From Bacillota bacterium (GTDB taxonomy: Bacteria > Bacillota > Sulfobacillia > Sulfobacillales > Sulfobacillaceae): a DNA stretch of 64,000 nt. Numbering within the stretch: the stretch's first letter is position 1; each line of letters begins with the position of its first letter. The DNA is taken from contig JAJYHT010000091.1 of assembly GCA_021784595.1 (NCBI GenBank), positions 1 to 64,000 of the forward strand, in the 5' to 3' direction. The position numbers and the translations under genes were made by a program. Positions 37,766 to 52,660 of the stretch are shown one piece after another. The notes under the pieces were generated by a model that had not been told where the DNA came from, searched no databases, and worked only from the letters and a program-made list of their open reading frames with translations.

Positions 37766-38605
37766 TTATTTGATGCCGGTCGACGCCACTCCTTGGATAA
37801 ACCACTTTTGAAAAAGCAGGTAGACCAGGGCAATCGGCAAGGTGGCGATGACGCCGGCCGCCATTAATAACGGCCAATTGACGAAATACTCCTGCTGAAA
37901 CATGACAATTCCTAGCGGCAGGGTCCATAAATGCGTGCGATTTGCCACCAAAAGAGGCAATAGAAAGTTGTTCCACGATGCTAAAAACATCATCAGCGCC
38001 AATGTAAGCATATTGGGTATCACCATCGGCAGTGAAATTTGAACGAACATCCGCAACCGTCCCGCCCCATCAATGGTCGCGGCATCTTCCATTTCCTGGG
38101 GTATAGTCAAGAAGGCTTGGCGCATCAAAAAAACCCCCATGGCGGAGACTGCCATAGGCAATATCATACCGGCATAGCTGTCCAGTAATCCCAAGGCGCG
38201 TAAAAGAATGTACACAGGCAGCATCACGGATTGAAAGGGCACCATCAACATCGACAGAATTCCGATGAACACGAAGTTCTTGCCTGGAAAGTTAATGCGC
38301 GCCAGAGCATATCCAGCCATCGAATCAAACACCAAATTGAGGACCGTGACAATGCTGGCGACCAAAAAGCTATTGCCAAACCACCGAGCGACGGGCACCA
38401 ATTTCCATATTGAGATAAAGTTCTGCACGTCCACAGGATGCGGCCACCACCGGGGAGGAAAAGCCAACGATTCCGATAACGGTTTCAGAGCCGTCGACAG
38501 ACTCCATAGAAACGGAACAAACATCGTCACGGCACCCAAGATCAAGATCGCCAGATATAGTCCATGGATCAGGTGACGGATCCATTGTGGTTGACTTGAG
38601 ATCAT
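37766..38605 (-). CDS. carbohydrate ABC transporter permease, MalG type
   Basis: A 279-residue inner-membrane permease with six segments and the EAA loop (EMEDAATIDGAGRLRMFVQISLPMVIP) that docks the ATPase. Last gene of the operon LacI-glycosidase fusion / binding protein / MalF-type / MalG-type. No ATPase gene is in the operon; a shared MsiK-like ATPase encoded elsewhere would be needed, as is common in Gram-positive bacteria. AAGGCAGGGA lies before the ATG. Confidence 0.9.
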   Translation of the reverse strand: MISSQPQWIRHLIHGLYLAILILGAVTMFVPFLWSLSTALKPLSESLAFPPRWWPHPVDVQNFISIWKLVPVARWFGNSFLVASIVTVLNLVFDSMAGYALARINFPGKNFVFIGILSMLMVPFQSVMLPVYILLRALGLLDSYAGMILPMAVSAMGVFLMRQAFLTIPQEMEDAATIDGAGRLRMFVQISLPMVIPNMLTLALMMFLASWNNFLLPLLVANRTHLWTLPLGIVMFQQEYFVNWPLLMAAGVIATLPIALVYLLFQKWFIQGVASTGIK

Positions 38606-38645: not shown

Positions 38646-39587
38646 TCAATAATCGACGGTTTGTCCCAACCATCGATTGGCTGCTAGAGTGACTGCGAGT
38701 ATCAACATGAATAACAAGACGGTTGCCGCCGCTCCCAGTCCCACTTTTCCATAGGAGAAAATGAACTGATACACGAGCAGCACCAATGTGGTCGTGGAAT
38801 GAAGCGGTCCTCCCGTACCCTGGGACAAAATGAATGATTGATCAAACATTTGTAAGGTACCGATAATGCCCATTACCACCACGAAAAATGTGGTAGGCCT
38901 CAGTAAAGGCACGGTAATCCGGCTAAACATACGCCAGCTGCCCGCCCCATCAATCGCAGCAGCTTCATAGAGGCTCACTGGAATCGCTTGCAGTCCGGCC
39001 AGGAATACGACCGTAAAGTATCCCGCGGTGGTCCAAATATTCATCAGCATAATAGCTGAAAGGGCAAATGAAGGGTTCGACAACCAGTCTGGTCCATGGA
39101 TGCCAACCAACAGCAAAAAACTGTTCAACAGCCCAAATTTGTTATAAATCCACATAAAAATGATCGAAATCACGGCTGACGAACTAATCGCCGGAAAGAA
39201 AAAGGCGAGCCGAAAAAAACCTCGGGCGGGTAATTTTTGATTGAGAATGGCGGCGATGCCTAGTGCAATCAAGGTTTGCGTGGGCACTACCACAAACGCG
39301 AATACCACCGAGTTGCGCACTGCAATCCAGAACAAGGGCAATTCCAATAGCTGGGGATAATTGGACAATCCCACAAAGTGCATATGGTTGAGCAAGGACC
39401 ACGAAAAAAAGCTTAAATAGAACGCATAGAATGCGGGTCCTGCGGTAAACAAGGCCAGCAGAATAATCGTGGGCGCAGTAAATAAGTATCCTGTCACCCC
39501 GTTGCGGGACGCTTGAGCGCGTCCCGTCATCGAGGTTCCCAGGGCAAGTCCTTGGTTAGGTTTGTTAAATACCACCTTCACCATCAT
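38646..39587 (-). CDS. carbohydrate ABC transporter permease, MalF/UgpA type
   Basis: A 313-residue permease with six main membrane segments and the EAA loop SLYEAAAIDGAGSWRMFSRITVPLL. It pairs with the MalG-type gene that follows after 40 bases. The first 30 residues are hydrophilic; MTGRAQ at residue 20 could be an internal start, but AGGGGG before ATG 39587 supports the longer form. It transports an oligosaccharide, probably an alpha-glucan product given the fused glycosidase gene. Confidence 0.9.
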   Translation of the reverse strand: MMVKVVFNKPNQGLALGTSMTGRAQASRNGVTGYLFTAPTIILLALFTAGPAFYAFYLSFFSWSLLNHMHFVGLSNYPQLLELPLFWIAVRNSVVFAFVVVPTQTLIALGIAAILNQKLPARGFFRLAFFFPAISSSAVISIIFMWIYNKFGLLNSFLLLVGIHGPDWLSNPSFALSAIMLMNIWTTAGYFTVVFLAGLQAIPVSLYEAAAIDGAGSWRMFSRITVPLLRPTTFFVVVMGIIGTLQMFDQSFILSQGTGGPLHSTTTLVLLVYQFIFSYGKVGLGAAATVLLFMLILAVTLAANRWLGQTVDY

Positions 39588-39596
39588 TCCCCCTGG

Positions 39597-40865
39597 TTAT
39601 TGACCTAATAGCTGGGTCCCATCCTGTTGCATTACCTTTAGCGCCTGTCGCGCACTTTCCCGTCCGTCAATGACAAGAGTGGTTTGGTTCGTCATGGTGG
39701 TCGTCACATATTCCACAAAACCCGGTGGAAAGGTCCAAGCCTGACTTTGCGGCAAATCGGCGATCAATCCCTGCAACACTGGATGCTGAGCGTAATAAGG
39801 CAGGTTGATCAAGGATGGACGAACCGGCAGCGCAAGCCCTAAATTCATCCACTTGGTCATTCCCTGCTTGCTGGTTAAATACCGGATTAGAGTCCACGAC
39901 GCTTGGGGATGCAAAGAATCTTTGGTGATTCCATAGGCTACCGGGAAGGTTAAAGTTTCAGCGTTCACTGGGCCTTTAGGCATGGGCACGATCCCAAATT
40001 GAGTGTGGGGATAGGTTTGATTTAGGAATGGTACCAGCCAGTTGCCGGACACCACCATTCCCGCGTCACCCATTCCAAACGCTTGGCCGCCCCATTGCGC
40101 CCCAACCGTGGGTGGGGTGGTGGCGTAGTGATCGCGATAAAGGTTGACAAAAAACCGATATCCTTGAAGCGATGCGGGACTGGTCAGTGTCATCCGGGTC
40201 ATGGCAGCATTCATCACGCCGCCGCCCGATTCCAAAAGAAATTCTGCCCATCGCGGCTCCTGAACCGAGTTGATGAGCCCGTATTGGTGAAGGGCTGGTT
40301 TGGTCAACGCTTTGGCGTCGGCGGCCAACTCCGCCCACGTCGTGGGCGGCGCGGTGATCCCGGCTTTTTGGAACAACGTCTTATTGTAAAACAGCGCCAA
40401 AGGAGACTGATCTTTTGGAATGCCATAGATTTGTCCGTGTGAAGAAAACAAAGAGAGGGCACTGGAATAAAAGTCTTGAATCGGAAAATGTGAACTCTTG
40501 ATATAATGGTTAAGCGGGATTAAGTCCTTATTCGCGATAAACGTACTGGATTCCCCGCCATTGTTGACATAAATCACGTCAGGCGCGTCGCCGGCGACAA
40601 ATCGAGTTTTTAACAAGGCTTCGTAGTTGCCGGAAATGGGCCGATAATTTACGTGAATCTTGGGATAGGCTTTCTCAAAATATCCCAATTCCTTTGTCAT
40701 TAGTTGGGCTTCCACTGGTGAAGATGTCCATCCTGACAAAGTAATCGTCACAACGCCTGAACTGTTGTTACCTTGAGCGCTGGCTGCCCCACAGCCAGCG
40801 CTCAAGGTGGCGATGGCCAGCACCATGGCGCCTTTGCTCATCAATTTCCAATGTTTCGTGCGCAT
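39597..40865 (-). CDS. extracellular sugar-binding lipoprotein
   Basis: A 422-residue family-1 solute-binding protein with a lipoprotein signal (LSAGCG, Cys near residue 25). VTITLSGW...EAQLMTKELGYFEKAYP near the start, DAPDVIYVNNG in the middle, and the sugar-binding domain pattern throughout match CUT1 binding proteins for oligosaccharides. GGAGG lies upstream of the ATG. It gives ligand to the two permeases encoded next. Confidence 0.92.
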   Translation of the reverse strand: MRTKHWKLMSKGAMVLAIATLSAGCGAASAQGNNSSGVVTITLSGWTSSPVEAQLMTKELGYFEKAYPKIHVNYRPISGNYEALLKTRFVAGDAPDVIYVNNGGESSTFIANKDLIPLNHYIKSSHFPIQDFYSSALSLFSSHGQIYGIPKDQSPLALFYNKTLFQKAGITAPPTTWAELAADAKALTKPALHQYGLINSVQEPRWAEFLLESGGGVMNAAMTRMTLTSPASLQGYRFFVNLYRDHYATTPPTVGAQWGGQAFGMGDAGMVVSGNWLVPFLNQTYPHTQFGIVPMPKGPVNAETLTFPVAYGITKDSLHPQASWTLIRYLTSKQGMTKWMNLGLALPVRPSLINLPYYAQHPVLQGLIADLPQSQAWTFPPGFVEYVTTTMTNQTTLVIDGRESARQALKVMQQDGTQLLGQ

Positions 40866-40885: not shown

Positions 40886-43800
40886 TTATTTAGTGGTGTT
40901 CGTAGGTTTGTAGACAGCACGGAAGTCCCACTGATTGGGCAAGTTTATCGCCCGGAGTTTTTTTCCATCAAAGTGCAACGTGAATTTATCCCCCGAACCT
41001 AGAGGAATATCCGTAATGGTTAACGGTGGCAACGATCCTGATAGGTCTGGTCGGCAACGTATGCTGCGTTGTTGCCCGTTAATTTCTAAGCCCAAGAGAA
41101 TCTGCAATAAATATAACGGGGTGCCAGCGGCCCAGGCTTGCGGGGAGCAAGCTTCCGGGTATGGCAAGGGGCCAATGTCTGCCCCTTCCTCGCCCGAAAA
41201 TAGCTCGGGAAGTCGTGATAGGGGGAAACGGCTGGCGGCTTTCATCAAGCCTTTGGCTACGATTTGAGCCGCTTCCAAAGCCCCCATGCGGGCTAGTCCT
41301 GCTGCGATGAGCGAAGTGTCGTGAGGCCACACACTCCCTCGGTGATAGCTGTAAGGGTCGTAGGCTGCCTCGTTTGCTCCCAGCGTCCGTATTCCCCATC
41401 CCGAAAATAAATTGGGGGACAGCAAGTGTTGCGCTACCTCATGGACGGTATTGCGCGGCACTATGCCAGACCATAGGCATTGGCCCGGGTCAGAGGATAT
41501 GGCGTCAACTGCTCGTCCTTGACTGTCTACCGCCAACGCATAGTAGTGACGGTCGGCAAGCCAAAACCTTTGATGAAACCGTTTTTTGAGCCCTTGCGCT
41601 CTCCTCTGCAAGCGCGCGCTTTCCTCCAAACGGCCTGCGGTCTGATAGTAATGCGCCATAGAGCGAAACGCGTTATATACGTATCCTTGCACTTCTGCCA
41701 CCGCGAGCGGCGGCTCTGCATGTTGACCATTGGAAAATACCATGGAATCAGACGAATCCTTCCACGACTGCACGGAGAGACCGCGAGATGAGCGCGGAGA
41801 AAAGTTGAGCAAGCCTAGTCCACTGCTGTCCTGTATCGTCTCTAGCCAACTCAACGCGCGCTCGGCGGCGGGCAGCAATTCGCTCATCAGGCCGTCATCG
41901 CCTGTCCTCTGCCAAGTGTCAACCAACAGGCTTAAGAACAACGGGGTCACATCGACCGATCCATAATACTTGGCAAACGGCACCTCCCCTATTCGCGCCA
42001 TTTCTCCCAAACGAATTTCGTGCACCATTTTGCCTGGCTCTTCTTCGGTTTCCGGGATATCTTGGCGGCCTTGCCAGGCGGCTAAGGTATGCAGCGTATT
42101 TCGAGCCATCTCCGGCACCCATTGCAGCACTTGGTAGGCTGTGATGATGGCATCGCGGCCAAAAAACGTGCCGAACCAGGGAATGCCGGCCATCGGCACG
42201 AGACCGTTCCCGTAGTCCGTGGACAGCATCTGCAGATCGGTTCGAGCCCGCTCGATTACCTGATGCCAGTCTCCCTCCAATAACGTAAATCCAGGAAATT
42301 GCAACATTCTGTCGGAAAGTGCGATACGAGGGACTTCCGGCACCGGATTCATCCAGGATGCGGTAATCGTCAAATGTCCAGTTGGCTCTTGGTCCGAAAA
42401 TTGCCAGTGCCAATGGCCCATCTCGTCAGTGATATAAGGACGGCTCGATTCCACGCGGACTCGGCGGGAAATATGGTCTAGTCCTTCATATTGATAAATG
42501 GATTCTGAGCCTTTATGCAGAACCGTTTTGTTTCCGGCGTGATGGCGCTGGGAACCCCGCAATTCAAAGATGTCTAGAAAATCCGCATCAAATGACAGCG
42601 AGAGTTTCCAATCCGTAGCCGACCCAAATGACTTCCACGTCCAGTGGTCCTCCATGCGGTCACTGTACAGTTTTAATGTTCGGAGCACGTAGCGCGTGGC
42701 ACCAGAATGTTGTGCCACGTAGCGAATTTGCAATGAGTCAGGGGAAGAGGACAATGCCAAAGGTTCTTGAACCTCGTCGTCAATCCGCCACTGATACATT
42801 GACACCATGCGGGTATCATATAAATACACGCCTTGCCGCAGAGAATCTGGCTCAATGCGCCCAGACGTCGAGAACAGCGCGAACGCCGGACCTTTTTTCA
42901 ACACCGGTTCTTCCGGATTCGTCCTGGGCGTGCGGTAAATGGCAGGCACGCCCGTCGAGTCTCTGACCCGTAAGGATGGACGGACCTCCTCATTGGCCAC
43001 TTCTTGGCCCATGATGCGAGCGAGCACCATCTCTGCCAGCCGGTACCCGGCAGCAAACAGATCATGTTCGATAGTGGTCAGCGCGGGACTAATATGCGCG
43101 GAATATCCCGTGTTGCCAAAACCGATAATCGATATTTGACGCGGTACGTGAATTCCCAGATCGCTGGCACATTGAAGGGTGCCGATAGCCATGGCATCAT
43201 TGCTGGCAAAAATGGCCGTAGGCCGGCCCGGTTTTGATAACAATTCATGGGTGCGCTCGTAACCCGAACGAATTGTCATGTCACCCGTAATGACTCGCGA
43301 GTCCAATCCATGGGAGCGTACGACATCCTCATACCCGTGACGGCGCTGTTGTGCAAAGATATATTCCTCGGGCCCTGCCAAATGGGCGATGTGGCGATGA
43401 CCCAAATCCACCAGATGTTGGGTGGCAAGTTTTGCTCCCTCCCGATTGTCCACGTCATACCAGGTCGCCCAATCGGTTTGAGAGCCATAGACTACAAAAG
43501 GCAGATTTTCTTGGAGCAGGACCGCGAGCCGTGAGTCGGATTCGTCGTCGTTGATAAGAACCACACCATCCACCCGCCGCGAACGGGCAATGTCTATCAG
43601 GTAGGCTTGGGTTGAATGGGGTTCGGTGGGGGTTAACAGCATTAAGTGATACCCCGCCTGTTGACAAGCCGCCATTAACCCGGTTAATAGTGCTGGTGGC
43701 ACAGGTTCACGATGCCCCATTGCGCCAGGAACCACGACGCCAATGGTTTCCGATATCCCCTGCACCAAAAAGCGTCCTTGCGAATTCGGACGGTAATGCA

Positions 43801-43954
43801 ATGTTTCGGCCGCTTGGCGCACTCGATCGGCCGTTTCTGGTGAAATATTGCCCCGATTGTTGAGGACGTAGGAAACAGTCGCAATAGAAACGCCTGCTAA
43901 CCGGGCTACTTCGTAGATTCGTGCCGGACGAGAGTGTGAGGACACATTAGTCAC
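40886..43954 (-). CDS. fusion: LacI-family regulator + glycogen-debranching-type glycosidase
   Basis: A 1022-residue single frame. Residues 12-60 are a LacI HTH (RIYEVARLAGVSIATVSYVL), 68-335 a periplasmic-binding-type sensor with SNDAMAIGTL and a normal LacI end. From about 350 a GDE-N-bis domain follows (VLKKGPAFALFSTSG, GVYLYDTRMVSMY) and from 560 an (alpha/alpha)6 amylo-alpha-1,6-glucosidase-like domain: FFGRDAIIT (598-605), SWKDSSD with Asp733, AEVQGYVYNAF with Glu754, SYHRGSVWPHD (869-879). All look intact. Regulator and enzyme in one chain could couple hydrolysis to gene control. The GTG at 43954 lacks a good ribosome site; the GTG three codons in (43945) has GGGGTGA before it. It heads the sugar ABC operon. 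Confidence 0.88.
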   Translation of the reverse strand: MTNVSSHSRPARIYEVARLAGVSIATVSYVLNNRGNISPETADRVRQAAETLHYRPNSQGRFLVQGISETIGVVVPGAMGHREPVPPALLTGLMAACQQAGYHLMLLTPTEPHSTQAYLIDIARSRRVDGVVLINDDESDSRLAVLLQENLPFVVYGSQTDWATWYDVDNREGAKLATQHLVDLGHRHIAHLAGPEEYIFAQQRRHGYEDVVRSHGLDSRVITGDMTIRSGYERTHELLSKPGRPTAIFASNDAMAIGTLQCASDLGIHVPRQISIIGFGNTGYSAHISPALTTIEHDLFAAGYRLAEMVLARIMGQEVANEEVRPSLRVRDSTGVPAIYRTPRTNPEEPVLKKGPAFALFSTSGRIEPDSLRQGVYLYDTRMVSMYQWRIDDEVQEPLALSSSPDSLQIRYVAQHSGATRYVLRTLKLYSDRMEDHWTWKSFGSATDWKLSLSFDADFLDIFELRGSQRHHAGNKTVLHKGSESIYQYEGLDHISRRVRVESSRPYITDEMGHWHWQFSDQEPTGHLTITASWMNPVPEVPRIALSDRMLQFPGFTLLEGDWHQVIERARTDLQMLSTDYGNGLVPMAGIPWFGTFFGRDAIITAYQVLQWVPEMARNTLHTLAAWQGRQDIPETEEEPGKMVHEIRLGEMARIGEVPFAKYYGSVDVTPLFLSLLVDTWQRTGDDGLMSELLPAAERALSWLETIQDSSGLGLLNFSPRSSRGLSVQSWKDSSDSMVFSNGQHAEPPLAVAEVQGYVYNAFRSMAHYYQTAGRLEESARLQRRAQGLKKRFHQRFWLADRHYYALAVDSQGRAVDAISSDPGQCLWSGIVPRNTVHEVAQHLLSPNLFSGWGIRTLGANEAAYDPYSYHRGSVWPHDTSLIAAGLARMGALEAAQIVAKGLMKAASRFPLSRLPELFSGEEGADIGPLPYPEACSPQAWAAGTPLYLLQILLGLEINGQQRSIRCRPDLSGSLPPLTITDIPLGSGDKFTLHFDGKKLRAINLPNQWDFRAVYKPTNTTK

Positions 43955-43964
43955 CCCAAAATAG

Positions 43965-43989
43965 TTAATCGCTTCAGTGAAACGATTAA
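43965..43989. promoter_or_regulatory. palindromic LacI-type operator
   Basis: TTAATCG at 43965-43971 and CGATTAA at 43983-43989 frame an inverted repeat containing TGAAACGATTAA on one strand and TGAAGCGATTAA on the other, each centred on CG as LacI-family sites are. It lies 10-35 bases before the fusion gene start, so it should be where the LacI part represses its own operon. Confidence 0.75.
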
Positions 43990-44227
43990 ATTATAAATCC
44001 AGATGTCACACAATACTAGAACTTTTCTGCATTATTTCAAAAATTTTATTGAGGCGAGTATATCAAGGGCTTCCCAATGCGCTTGCAAAGGGATTGCCGA
44101 ATCCGCGTCGTGGATTGTTCAAGCACCTTAATGTAGGCGGGATCCAAAGCCGTTATCACCGCTAAGTCTCACCAAAGGGATACATTTTCTATTTAAGCCG
44201 TTGTTCTGAACCGTTCTGGCTTCACCG
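43990..44227. other. intergenic, promoter region of the sugar operon
   Basis: AT-rich upstream DNA of the LacI-fusion gene followed by the 3' side of the flippase gene. No gene or clear terminator seen. Confidence 0.4.
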
Positions 44228-47115: not shown

Positions 47116-48150
47116 ATGAAGTCAGCCGCATTTGCGCTGACAGCGTCGGTTTTGATGGCGGGAACTTTCTTAGCTGGATGTGGCGCTGCATCGTCTGCTC
47201 CGCCATCGTCTCCAACAGCTTCAAAGGCATCTTCGTATAAGGTAGGTTTAGTCACCGATACCGGCGGGCTGAACGATCATGGATTTAATCATTTGGCCTA
47301 CTTAGGGCTTATGCAAGCTAAAAAAGAATTCGGCGTAACCACCTCAGTAGTGCAATCTCAAACCGCCTCGGATTATGTTCCCTATCTGACCAACTATGCG
47401 CAACAGGGATATAACCTCGTAATCGCGGTCGGCTTTCTTATGCAACAAGCTGTTCAGCAGGTTTCCAAAGAATTCCCGCACACCAAATTCATGATTATTG
47501 ACGACCAGGTAAATGGACCCAACGTCACCTCCTCGCTATTTGAAACCCAGCAGTGCGGTTATTTGGTGGGCGAATTGTCCGGGCTGGTGCAAAAAGAACA
47601 TGCCTTGCCCAATATCAACAATGACAATACGCTCGGTGTAGTTGGCGGCATGTCGATTCCTCCCGTCAACACGTATATCGCTGGATTCTATGCCGGCGTG
47701 CATGCCGTAGATCCCTCCGCAAAAATCCTGCTAAAGTACACTAACGACTTTAACAACCCCAACAATGGACAAATTTATGCGCAATCTGAAATTGCCCAAC
47801 ACGCCGATATAATCTTTCAGGTTGCGGGCGGATCAGGGCTAGGGGTCATTACTGCGGCCGAGCAGTCCCATACCTATGCCATCGGGGTAGATGCCAACCA
47901 AAACTACCTGGCGCCCAACACCGTCATCACAAGTGCGGAAAAAGGTGTGCAAATCGCGACTTTCGATACCATTAAAGAAGGCGTGAAGGGAACCTTGAAA
48001 CCCGGCGTTCAGTATTTTAACCTGAATAACAACGGAGTGGGCATGGCCACGCCCATTTCTGCCATTCCCCAAAGCATTGTGCAGCAGGTTCTGCAGTCTG
48101 AAAAGGAAATTGTTGCAGGCAAGATCGTGCCACCGACCAATATTCCTTAA
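47116..48150 (+). CDS. BMP-family nucleoside-binding lipoprotein
   Basis: A 344-residue lipoprotein (lipobox LAGCG, Cys near 22). KVGLVTDTGGLNDHGFNHLAYLGL is the signature of the BMP/PnrA family, whose members bind purine or pyrimidine nucleosides for ABC import. GTAGGAGGG lies before the ATG. It is followed by one ATPase and two permeases of the same importer type and by psuG and psuK, so its ligand here may be pseudouridine. The binding-pocket residues cannot be judged by eye. Confidence 0.9.
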   Translation: MKSAAFALTASVLMAGTFLAGCGAASSAPPSSPTASKASSYKVGLVTDTGGLNDHGFNHLAYLGLMQAKKEFGVTTSVVQSQTASDYVPYLTNYAQQGYNLVIAVGFLMQQAVQQVSKEFPHTKFMIIDDQVNGPNVTSSLFETQQCGYLVGELSGLVQKEHALPNINNDNTLGVVGGMSIPPVNTYIAGFYAGVHAVDPSAKILLKYTNDFNNPNNGQIYAQSEIAQHADIIFQVAGGSGLGVITAAEQSHTYAIGVDANQNYLAPNTVITSAEKGVQIATFDTIKEGVKGTLKPGVQYFNLNNNGVGMATPISAIPQSIVQQVLQSEKEIVAGKIVPPTNIP

Positions 48151-48227
48151 CACAAGGATCCCTGAGCTCGCGGCGTAACTGGCGCGAGCTCCACTTGCCT
48201 TTCTATCTAGGAGGGAGCAATAAATCG

Positions 48228-49751
48228 ATGGCACAACTTGAAGTGGTCGGCGTTAGCAAACGGTTCGGGAATTTGCGTGCGAACGATAACATTTCCTTTA
48301 GTGTGCGCGGCGGAGAAGTGCTGGCAGTTTTAGGTGAAAACGGCGCTGGCAAGTCCACACTCATGAAAATCGTATCTGGATTTCTTCGACCTGATTCGGG
48401 TCGAGTTGCGGTGGACGGCCAAACAATCCCGATTGGGGATCCACAAGCCGCCATTCGGGCTGGCATCGGCATGATTCATCAACATTTCATGTTGATTCCC
48501 CGTATGACGGTAATGGAAAATTTGATTTTAGGCCGAGAGCCGCGGACGCGTTTGGGGAGCATTGATACCCGCCAAGCTAAGCAGGAAGTGGAAGATCTAT
48601 CCAAGCGTTTTGGCCTGCATGTTGATCCTAATAGCCCAGTGGAATCCCTCAGCGTGGGCGAACAACAGCGGGTAGAGATTCTTAAAGCTTTTTACCGTGG
48701 GGCCAAAATTTTAATTCTCGATGAACCAACCGCTCTCTTAACACCCCAAGAAACCGACCGGTTATTTGGCTCGATTCGTGAATTTGCGCGACAAGGGCTG
48801 AGCGTCGTGTTCATTAGCCACAAACTGGACGAAGTCATGAAGATTTCGGAACGCGTCATGGTGGTTCGGGCTGGCCAGTTAGTAGATACCGTGGATACCG
48901 GGCAAACCGATGCTTTTTCGCTCGCCCGCATGATGGTAGGCAGAGACGTAGACCTTGGCGCATCGCGCACAACCTCCGGATTGGGCAACGTGGTCTTAAC
49001 CGTGGACCATCTGGAGTCACAATTGTCCAAGGGTCAACCTCTGTTGGGGCCGATAAGCTTTACGCTTCGTCATGGGGAAATTCTGGGCGTAGCGGGTGTC
49101 GAGGGAAACGGACAGCAAGAGTTGGCCGAACTTCTCGCAGGAATTCGACTGCCGTCTAGCGGCACCATTCTCTTAGACGATAAACGGGTGGATAGCTTGC
49201 CAATCCGACGCCGGTTGGAATCTGACATCGCCTACGTGCCTGCAGATAGACAAGGTGAAGGCCTGGTTCTTGATTTGAAGATCTGGGAAAACTTTATACT
49301 GCGCGACTACTATCGTCCTCCCTTTCGCAAGGGACTGGGAATTGATGTTAAAGTGGCAAAGGCCCGTACCCAGGCTGCCGTGGACGCTTTTGATATTCGT
49401 CCCAATAACATTGACCTGCCTAGTCGCGCGTTGTCTGGCGGAAATCAACAAAAGCTTCTGTTGGCGCGCGAGATGAGTCGCAATCCCCGGATCATGATTG
49501 TCTCGCAGCCGACACGCGGTTTAGATGTCGGAGCCATCGAGTACGTCCATCATCAACTGATGTCGCTCGCGCAGACCGGCACCGCTATCGTGCTGATTTC
49601 GTTGGAACTAGATGAGTTGATGAAATTATCGGACCGGATCATGGTGCTGTTCCGAGGCCAAATCCAAGGCATTGTGGCGCGCCCGGAATTCCGGCGCGAC
49701 GCCATCGGTCTATGGATGACTGGCCAAAAAGGTCAGGAGGTTCGCCAATGA
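48228..49751 (+). CDS. nucleoside ABC transporter ATP-binding protein (two ATPase domains)
   Basis: A 507-residue protein with tandem ABC domains as in YufO/NupA. First domain: Walker [10 protein letters not shown] (near 38), signature LSVGEQQR, Walker B LILDEPTA. The second domain has GVEGNGQQE in place of a canonical Walker A, signature LSGGNQQK, and IVSQPTRG, so the second site is degenerate as usual in this family. Start ATG 48228 with GGAGGG upstream; the frame to 48195 is not supported. Next gene overlaps as ATGA. Confidence 0.92.
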
Positions 49752-50839
49752 AGAAATGGGCCTTGTCAGCGCTAAAACCGCTTTTGACCGTGGTCTTGGG
49801 CCTCATCGTCAGCGGTCTCATCGGTCAGTTGACAGGATATCCCGCCAGCGCGGTCATGTCGGCTTTATGGCTGGGTTCGGTGGGCACCGTGACTAATTTT
49901 GCCAGCACGCTGGTTATTTTTATTCCGCTCTCCTTGACCGCACTAGGGATTGCCATCGCATTTCGGGCCGGATTGTTCAATATTGGGGCGGAAGGTCAAT
50001 ACTGGATGGGTGCCATTGCTGCAACTTGGGTAGGTGCGATGGGCGGTGCTTGGCCGCCGGGCGTACACCTGCTGGCTGTCATCCTAGCCGCCATTGTGGC
50101 AGGCGGCTTGTACGCGATGATTCCAGGATTGCTCAAAGCATATCGCGGAGCTCACGAAGTGATTACCACCATGATGCTAAGCTATGCCGCGGTGGAGTTT
50201 GGACATTACCTGATAGAAAAGGGTCCTCTCATGCTGCCCGGCGCGATTCCGGAATCCCCGGCGATTGCGCAATCTGCCACTTTGCCTATCTTGGTGCCTA
50301 CGACTGAACTGTCCGCGGGCATCTTTTTGGCCCTTGGTGCCATATTAATCGCAGCCTGGCTCATGACACGCACACGATTGGGGTTTGAAATCACTTTATT
50401 AGGGAAAAATCCCAAGGCAACCCGGCTGGCTGGGGTTTCTGCCCCTAAATTGACTGTCATCAGCATGGTCATTGCGGGGGCGTTCGCGGGATTGGCTGGT
50501 GGGGTGCAAATTAGCGGGGTTTCTCACCAGTTGATGGATTCTTTCGCCAATCAATACGGGTTCACAGCTATCGTCGTAGCTCTTCTAGCACGGAACAATC
50601 CCTGGGGCATAATTCCCTCAGCCTTTTTATTCGCAGCACTCCAAAGTGGTGCAGGGTACATGCAGATGAACGCCAACATCCCGGCTCAAATGGCTTATGT
50701 GATTCAGGGCGCGATTGTATTCATGGTTGCCGCAGATCGCATGTTCGACTGGGCCTGGATTCGGTTCCGCAAGGGGCGTTGGGGACAAATGCCTCCCTCG
50801 GAGACCCCAGCAATTGCCCATGAGGAGGTCTCGTTATGA
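49748..50839 (+). CDS. nucleoside ABC transporter permease (YufP/NupB type)
   Basis: A 363-residue permease with eight to ten membrane segments. FRAGLFNIGAEGQYWMGAIAA is the conserved nucleotide-importer motif in this family. ATG 49748 overlaps the ATPase stop (ATGA), and its own stop overlaps the next ATG in the same way, so the three genes are translated in step. Confidence 0.9.
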   Translation: MKKWALSALKPLLTVVLGLIVSGLIGQLTGYPASAVMSALWLGSVGTVTNFASTLVIFIPLSLTALGIAIAFRAGLFNIGAEGQYWMGAIAATWVGAMGGAWPPGVHLLAVILAAIVAGGLYAMIPGLLKAYRGAHEVITTMMLSYAAVEFGHYLIEKGPLMLPGAIPESPAIAQSATLPILVPTTELSAGIFLALGAILIAAWLMTRTRLGFEITLLGKNPKATRLAGVSAPKLTVISMVIAGAFAGLAGGVQISGVSHQLMDSFANQYGFTAIVVALLARNNPWGIIPSAFLFAALQSGAGYMQMNANIPAQMAYVIQGAIVFMVAADRMFDWAWIRFRKGRWGQMPPSETPAIAHEEVSL

Positions 50840-51759
50840 GCTTTTTCTTGAACCCAGAGCTCTGGGCTCTCACCGTAACGGTGTCTGTACCGTTAATTTA
50901 TGCCTCCTTGGGCGGCATGTTTTCTGAACGCGGAGGGGTCGTCAACATTGCCATGGAGGGCATGATGTTGATGTCGGCCTTTGTGTCGGTGGCGTTCGCG
51001 TATGCTAGCCATAATGCCTGGATTGGACTTTTAGCCGGGGTGGCCAGTGGCGCCGCGATGTCATTGCTGTTTGCATGGGCGACACTAAAACTTCAAGCCG
51101 ACCAAGTCGTGGTGGGAATGGCCATCAACCTTTTGGCCCTAGGCTTGACCGGCTATTTTCTCGATGCCTTCTATGGCTATAACGGCACTCCCATCTCCAC
51201 TCCGTCCTTGCCTACCTGGCATTTGAACGTTTTATCGCATCTTCCCGTCTTGGGTCCCGCTTTGGCCCAAGAAAATGTCCTGACGTATTTATTGATTCCT
51301 ACGTTGTTAGGCGCCCAGTATGCCTTGTTTCGTACTCCCTGGGGTCTAAGGCTGCGCTCTATGGGTGAAAAACCGGAAGCCGGCCGGAGTGCGGGTCTCA
51401 GTGTCCTCCGCTACCGACTCTCCGGAGTCCTGCTGTCGGGCATCTTGTCGGGTATTGCTGGGGCATATCTGTCGATCGGTGTCCTCAACAGCTTTAATGT
51501 CGACATGACTGCGGGTCGAGGATACATCGCATTGGCCGCCATGATCTTTGGGAATTGGAAACCCAAGGGCGCGCTCATGGCCTCCTTGATTTTTGGATTT
51601 CTGTCCGCGGCCAGTATTCAATTGCAGGGCTCCATAATTCCCTCCGACATTGTATTGATGGTCCCCTATCTGTTAACCGTTGTAGCAGTGGCTGGCATTG
51701 TAGGACGTACTACCCCGCCTGCTGCCGACGGTATTCCCTATCAAGAGGAGTCACTTTAA
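50836..51759 (+). CDS. nucleoside ABC transporter permease (YufQ/NupC type)
   Basis: A 307-residue second permease. GGMFSERGGVVNIAMEGMMLMSAF is the family signature, followed by further membrane helices and the TAGRGYIALAAMIFGNWKPKGA motif near the end. ATG 50836 overlaps the previous stop. The next gene, psuG, starts 1-2 bases after its stop, so transport and breakdown are co-transcribed. Confidence 0.9.
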   Translation: MSFFLNPELWALTVTVSVPLIYASLGGMFSERGGVVNIAMEGMMLMSAFVSVAFAYASHNAWIGLLAGVASGAAMSLLFAWATLKLQADQVVVGMAINLLALGLTGYFLDAFYGYNGTPISTPSLPTWHLNVLSHLPVLGPALAQENVLTYLLIPTLLGAQYALFRTPWGLRLRSMGEKPEAGRSAGLSVLRYRLSGVLLSGILSGIAGAYLSIGVLNSFNVDMTAGRGYIALAAMIFGNWKPKGALMASLIFGFLSAASIQLQGSIIPSDIVLMVPYLLTVVAVAGIVGRTTPPAADGIPYQEESL

Positions 51760-51760
51760 T

Positions 51761-52660
51761 ATGGTTGATTATCCGTTTGTTATCCGCCCCGAAGTACATG
51801 ATGCGTTAGAGAGCCACCAACCGTTAGTAGCCCTGGAAACGGCGGTTTTGACGCATGGCTTGCCCTATCCCGACAATATCGAAACCATGACTCACATGGC
51901 TCAAGAGGTGCGAAAGAGCGGCGCCATCCCCGCCGTGATTGGCCTTAAGCAAGGGGAGGTTGTGGTGGGTTTAGAATCCCCCGAATGGGAAGAAATTCTC
52001 ATCGAGCCTGAAAAATGCTCTCTTCGTGATTTAGCTCCTGCCGTGATGCGGGGCAAAAACGGCGGCACCACGGTGGCTTTAACCGCCTATGTGGCACACC
52101 GCGCCGGCATCCGTGCCTTTGCCACAGGCGGCATCGGGGGCGTGCACCGGGGGGCCCAGGACACTTGGGACATTTCAGCCGATTTATATGCCATGCACAC
52201 GTTGCCCGTCATTATTGTGTCCTCCGGTGCCAAGAGCATTTTGGACATACCAAAAACGTTGGAGTTTTTGGAATCTCTGGGTGTTCCGGTGGTGGGCTAC
52301 CGCACGCCCGAAGTGCCCGGGTTTTACGTCAGTACCACCGGACATGCGGTCTCTACCACGGTGCAACATCCAAAGGAAGTGGCTGAGATGCATCGTGTCA
52401 TGCAAAGCGTCGGAATGCAGCAGGCTTTGCTATTGGTTCAACCCGGCCCCCTGCCCGTTGACAGCAGTCTGGTGGAATCTCTGATTGCACAAGCGTTAAA
52501 GGCTGCTGCTCGAGAGCACGTGTCAGGCAAAGCGATGACACCTTTTATGTTGGGATATCTCAATCAGGAAGCTGGCGATATTCTCAAACGCTCCAATATT
52601 GCACTATTGATAGCTAATGCGGCGCTCGCCGGAGAAGTGGCAGTCACGCTTTATGCTTGA
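51761..52660 (+). CDS. psuG: pseudouridine-5'-phosphate glycosidase
   Basis: A 299-residue enzyme that splits pseudouridine 5'-phosphate into uracil and ribose 5-phosphate. ALETAVLTHGLPYPDNIE, GKNGGTTVALTAYVAHRAGI, FATGGIGGVHRGA and SGAKSILDIPKTLEFLESLGVPVVGY are the PsuG motifs, including the catalytic Glu and the Lys of the active site. Normal length. The indigoidine synthase A domain name also applies to this family. It lies between the nucleoside permease gene and a PfkB kinase gene. Confidence 0.93.
   Translation: MVDYPFVIRPEVHDALESHQPLVALETAVLTHGLPYPDNIETMTHMAQEVRKSGAIPAVIGLKQGEVVVGLESPEWEEILIEPEKCSLRDLAPAVMRGKNGGTTVALTAYVAHRAGIRAFATGGIGGVHRGAQDTWDISADLYAMHTLPVIIVSSGAKSILDIPKTLEFLESLGVPVVGYRTPEVPGFYVSTTGHAVSTTVQHPKEVAEMHRVMQSVGMQQALLLVQPGPLPVDSSLVESLIAQALKAAAREHVSGKAMTPFMLGYLNQEAGDILKRSNIALLIANAALAGEVAVTLYA

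Follow-up and report, generated by a model that had tools for sequence, protein, structure and literature searches.

A conserved family of one-chain LacI repressor–glycosidases at the head of a sugar ABC operon

LacI repressors are the textbook stand-alone switch, and the locus described here raises the question of what it means when such a repressor runs on, in the same chain, into a complete glycosidase. In the window, i.e., the whole 64,000-nucleotide stretch of DNA that was analyzed, a single open frame of 1022 codons extends on the minus strand from a GTG at 43954 to a stop ending at 40886 with no internal stop, and genes for a sugar-binding protein and two permeases lie downstream. The preliminary description had recognized a LacI part and a glycosidase part in one uninterrupted frame at the head of such an operon, and the open frame and Pfam searches bear out both points:

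40886–43954, minus strand: fused LacI–glycosidase gene, 1022 codons, probable true start at GTG 43945 (codon 4)
39597–40865, minus strand: sugar ABC solute-binding protein (SBP_bac_1), downstream of the fused gene, by Pfam
38646–39587, minus strand: ABC permease 1, by Pfam
37766–38605, minus strand: ABC permease 2, by Pfam

By the open reading frames of the window and Pfam, an ATPase gene is absent from this operon. Elsewhere in the window (47116–52660), a nucleoside-type ABC operon contains a binding protein, an ATPase, and two permeases, and the gene after it is one that we take, purely by eye, to encode a pseudouridine-5'-phosphate glycosidase. Because a strong ribosome site is found at the in-frame GTG 43945 (−10.4 kcal/mol) and none at GTG 43954 (−0.5 kcal/mol), the fused protein probably starts three codons after the first GTG and would thus comprise 1019 amino acids.

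In a search of 61 genomes, near-full-length matches in one frame were found in many species of two families of the order, one of them the window's. Public genomes, when scanned, yielded further fused genes, among others from MAGs labelled Actinomycetes, a label taken as it stands, and from two Bacillota MAGs (L091 and L097). In the scan of genome contigs, fused relatives were recovered with an alignment as query and not with a single protein. The holders are Sulfobacillus-like families and some acid-site MAGs, and no record in the plasmid collection spanned 80% of the query. Altogether, separate assemblies yielded 29 full-length fused proteins, all stop-free on translation; the homologue survey proposed in the preliminary description thus returned the same fusion, and a sequencing error that joined two genes, which had been considered there, is ruled out. 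The second doubt raised there was an internal start near codon 345, and more generally, two proteins could be made by an internal start or by processing at the junction. The window does have start-like GTG codons at positions 336 and 351, but their ribosome sites are weak (−2.9 and −4.6 kcal/mol, respectively), the junction of the window's protein and its homologues lacks a conserved start codon preceded by a ribosome site, and a start-like codon is absent there altogether in six homologues (L034, L035, L038, L050, L052, and L086). The internal start is therefore rejected. In eight close homologue pairs, dN/dS was 0.01–0.19 for the HTH, the sensor, the linker, the GDE_N, and the catalytic domain, which indicates that all domains are under purifying selection, and as this includes the linker, we regard the production of two proteins as very improbable. 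The fusion is a real, conserved family of one-chain repressor–glycosidases. In one member, that of Sulfobacillus thermotolerans Kr1 (L083:7740–7840), a frameshift lies within the LacI sensor, and the enzyme part is still an open frame.

The domain search that the preliminary description had suggested found LacI, GDE_N_bis, and GDE_C, all above the gathering cut-offs, as were the other Pfam matches of the protein (LacI 13–57, Peripla_BP_3 179–334, GDE_N_bis 352–518, MGH1-like_GH 671–909, and GDE_C 743–944). The resulting layout is as follows:

43757–43921, minus strand: HTH and hinge, residues 12–66 (Pfam, homologue alignment)
42947–43756, minus strand: LacI sensor core, residues 67–336, with R204 and N252 kept and G280 at the D274-equivalent position
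42905–42946, minus strand: junction, residues 337–350, modeled with low pLDDT; close homologue pairs show purifying selection here, without conserved internal start
42401–42901, minus strand: GDE_N_bis domain, residues 352–518 (Pfam)
41075–42274, minus strand: (alpha/alpha)6-type glycosidase domain, residues 561–960, matching the amylo-alpha-1,6-glucosidase 7VMA
41756–41758, minus strand: codon of Asp733, in WKDS, the predicted general acid
41204–41206, minus strand: codon of Glu917, in PELF, the predicted general base

The predicted structure of the whole protein (pLDDT 79, pTM 0.61) leaves the orientation of the domains uncertain. Its repressor part matches the LacI-family sensor structures of LacI, PurR, and CcpA (Z about 31–32), and its enzyme part matches 7VMA (Z 44.7, 573 residues, rmsd 3.6, 30% identity), with which the FGRD, WKDS, YHRGSVWPHD, and PELF boxes align. 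None of the 29 full-length fused proteins departs from D733 or E917, and the catalytic boxes noted earlier are intact; by analogy with glycogen debranching enzyme (D1241 and E1492 in its glucosidase domain; PMC4837477), these two residues are the predicted acid and base, respectively. As judged from its GDE_N_bis domain and its modeled (alpha/alpha)6 fold, the enzyme part belongs with the archaeal-type amylo-alpha-1,6-glucosidases, of which the Thermococcus enzyme debranches maltodextrin (PMC9142091). The substrates of relatives may be other than alpha-1,6-branched glucans, and a stand-alone homologue of the enzyme part gave a weak match to glucosylglycerate hydrolase.

A palindrome with two CG-centred sites had already been pointed out before the start of the gene, and it is placed as follows:

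43965–43989, no strand assigned: double operator, made up of a pair of TNAANCGNTTNA sites whose centres are 13 bp apart (shuffles, genome scan, clade conservation)
43990–43995, minus strand: TATAAT −10-like element, abutting the operator

None of 100 shuffles gave a match to the palindrome TTAATCGCTTCAGTGAAACGATTAA, which is unique within three mismatches in the 3.79-Mb genome, and a scan of the whole window at the operator threshold returned only 13 sites, two of which are those of 43965–43989. An TNAANCGNTTNA operator occurs within 250 bp upstream in all 31 regions of the main fused clade, perfect in 29 and one short in two, a count in which the motif was derived from the same upstream regions and the mechanically assigned ORF start was shifted downstream for a few genes; 14 of the 31 regions carry two copies exactly 13 bp apart. 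The operator was found in none of the 19 unfused lacI operons, nor upstream of the fused gene in L097. The HTHs of the fused clade have an invariant Tyr29 at the position of LacI R22, where operon-linked unfused repressors mostly have Arg or His. We thus read 43965–43989 as a clade-specific, CG-centred palindromic operator at the gene's own promoter. Across the 61 genomes, the exact doublet sits before fused genes or sugar ABC genes, and a looser pattern is found at few places, namely upstream of fused genes, before a second ABC operon of the window's own genome, and at a triple array in genome G018. In the window's genome, the doublet is present only at the fused gene and before a second sugar ABC operon (contig C3, 33162–33186; L209:8163–8187), which has no fused gene beside it and whose proteins are 75–90% identical to ABC proteins of relatives, in which the corresponding genes lie next to the fused gene in divergent orientation. 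From the doublet and this identity, it appears that the fused regulator probably acts in trans on the C3 operon. In genome G018, three operator sites in 13-bp steps (contig C302; L210:6128–6165) precede an orphan binding-protein gene, whose product is 79% identical to the binding protein of the fused operon.

Two further observations concern promoter regions and operators outside the window's group. Four fused genes of the second family contain, about 2.5 kb into the gene and within the region encoding the catalytic domain, a perfect operator-like site (L044:1941–1952, L045:7609–7620, L046:7825–7836, and L047:4357–4368). The site uses the sole TTA leucine codon of the GC-rich gene (one of two in L045), which points to selection for an auxiliary operator inside the gene, resembling lacO2. 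A conserved AGGAA-N-GAAT promoter-like element, similar to Bacillus sigma-H promoters, is found upstream of the fused genes of L041–L052 and L092. The window's group has TATAAT in this place, whereas most of the remaining fused genes are preceded by the AGGAA-N-GAAT element.

Where did the fusion come from? The unfused gene order lacI, GH, binding protein, permease, permease is found in Alicyclobacillus, Tumebacillus, Alkalicoccus, and relatives, and also in same-genus genomes without the fusion (L053–L057), whose permeases are about 65% identical to those of the window. In these operons, the same partners as in the fused gene are encoded by separate genes, and the fusion therefore probably joined neighboring genes within a sugar operon of this type. 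In a tree of the glycosidases, 31 rows with the fusion cluster in a single supported group, with L091 and L097 placed elsewhere. The large tree calls for two changes, and in an AU test with 44 rows, a single fused clade was not rejected (p 0.615); as this is compatible with one clade, we do not claim an independent second origin for L091/L097. That unfused lacI–GH neighbors are common in the same operon type is also what would be expected if the fusion were a matter of economy only, i.e., if the genes were joined for co-expression at a fixed ratio, with independent domains and a LacI sensor that binds its inducer as usual. This is possible, and about half of the fused proteins would fit it: they have a standard pocket, and their sensor and catalytic domain are equally conserved.

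We nevertheless consider it fairly probable that the protein is a bifunctional, autoregulated repressor–glycosidase of a sugar-uptake regulon, in which hydrolysis is coupled to repression. The single chain, the conserved catalytic residues, the selection on every domain, the clade-specific operator, and the gene context are seen in the sequences; that the protein binds DNA and is catalytically active, what it cuts, and that its domains are coupled is what we infer. A dimer of the LacI type, probably with a second one next to it, would occupy the double operator abutting its own promoter, and would thereby repress the fused gene and the downstream sugar ABC importer and, by the same operator, probably also the second ABC operon elsewhere in the genome. 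The C-terminal domain would be a cytoplasmic, exo-acting alpha-glucosidase, similar to amylo-alpha-1,6-glucosidase, that cuts the imported oligosaccharide. Arrival of the substrate would lift repression and its hydrolysis would bring repression back, so that sensing and removal of the same sugar would be united in one chain at a fixed ratio.

Which site senses the sugar is then the central question. In LacI, the established structures identify R197, N246, and D274 as sugar-pocket residues. In the window's protein, the R197 and N246 equivalents (R204 and N252) are kept, and the D274 equivalent is G280. In the fused group, the R197-equivalent is lost in 11 of 29 proteins and in three independent lineages, whereas it is Arg in all 24 background LacIs and in all 19 operon-linked LacIs, two sets that overlap by two proteins. 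The D274-equivalent was lost four times in the fused group and, as four of the 24 background LacIs also lack it, is no requirement of the LacI family. Counted as independent events, the pocket losses number only three to four, and the other cases are shared by descent. In five proteins of the Sulfobacillus group (L034–L038), the R197, N246/D247, and D274 positions are all changed. The ratio of sensor to catalytic distance is higher in pocket-lost than in pocket-intact pairs (Mann-Whitney p 0.013, six versus six pairs), and this faster change of the sensor, together with the repeated loss of pocket residues, speaks against mere economy. Unlike the pocket residues, the catalytic residues, the HTH, and the operators show no erosion in the fused group. 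These patterns point to a LacI pocket that is dispensable in several fused lineages, and partly so in the window's protein. Three genomes encode two fused paralogues each, one pocket-intact and one not (G007, L041/L051; G016, L042/L049; G029, L035/L050), and these pairs permit a comparison of both states inside one cell.

The preliminary description had suggested, as one of two possibilities, a local removal of the inducer. In this reading, the LacI pocket would sense the substrate and the tethered enzyme would destroy it, for a fast, self-limiting induction. Roughly half of the fused proteins have two sites that look intact, and the one-chain layout is conserved, but lineages that lost the pocket have survived and still have an intact operator and enzyme; moreover, a cytoplasmic sugar diffuses freely, and its removal should gain little from a tethered enzyme. 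We therefore find this idea improbable; the evidence speaks more for a dispensable pocket than for an enzyme that clears inducer from it. It is equally improbable that the pocket-lost proteins are repressors without sugar sensing, constitutive or controlled by a protein partner, to which an enzyme is merely fused: the wholly changed pockets of L034–L038 would agree with this, but the sensor of pocket-lost lineages is under purifying selection (dN/dS 0.07–0.19) and the operator is strictly kept. The LacI sensor of these lineages may bind a different ligand, or none. The pocket erosion is most simply read as a sign that sensing can pass to the fused enzyme domain; in pocket-decayed lineages, and perhaps to some extent in the protein of the window, a substrate bound in the enzyme domain would be the most likely derepressing signal. 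That the active site has altogether replaced the LacI pocket as inducer sensor, with substrate binding freeing the HTH, hydrolysis resetting it, and the LacI core remaining only as a dimerizing and relaying frame, is a tentative extension of the repressor–glycosidase model; if it applies, the catalytic cycle itself would time gene expression. With the pocket still intact in roughly half of the fused proteins, an enzyme acting as sensor need not hold in every one of them.

The fused protein shares with LacI/GalR repressors such as PurR, CcpA, and LacI the complete HTH, the hinge, the periplasmic-binding-like sensor, the CG-centred palindromic operator, and the local sugar operon, but differs from them by a complete glycosidase after the sensor in the same chain and, in several lineages, by the partial or complete loss of the canonical sugar-pocket residues. 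Trigger enzymes, such as PutA, BirA, NadR, and ROK-type regulators, combine catalysis or an enzyme fold with gene control in one protein, and by its architecture, the LacI–glycosidase resembles them, although none of them is, to our knowledge, a fusion of LacI with a glycoside hydrolase. The preliminary description had allowed for many homologues with this fusion being already described; many indeed exist, but no published description was found in the open-access literature, with subscription journals outside this search, and automatic domain databases may list the architecture. BzdR, a catabolic repressor in which an HTH-XRE is fused to a shikimate-kinase-like sensor, likewise has an enzyme-derived domain joined to a DNA-binding part, but no kinase activity was seen for this domain (PMC3602430), whereas the fused protein strictly keeps its catalytic residues and has a whole LacI sensor in between. 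With the archaeal-type amylo-alpha-1,6-glucosidase of Thermococcus gammatolerans (PDB 7VMA; PMC9142091), it shares the two-part layout and the WKDS, PELF/Y, and FGRD boxes; 7VMA is a stand-alone enzyme of 620 residues, and its counterpart is the C-terminal part of a repressor, with a substrate that may differ. The fused family is thus a variant that adds to the known LacI regulators and trigger enzymes. As a long-lived family with a switch and a signal-consuming enzyme in one chain, in which the classical pocket has repeatedly decayed, it would be a natural experiment in how a catalytic site can take over sensing from a binding protein.
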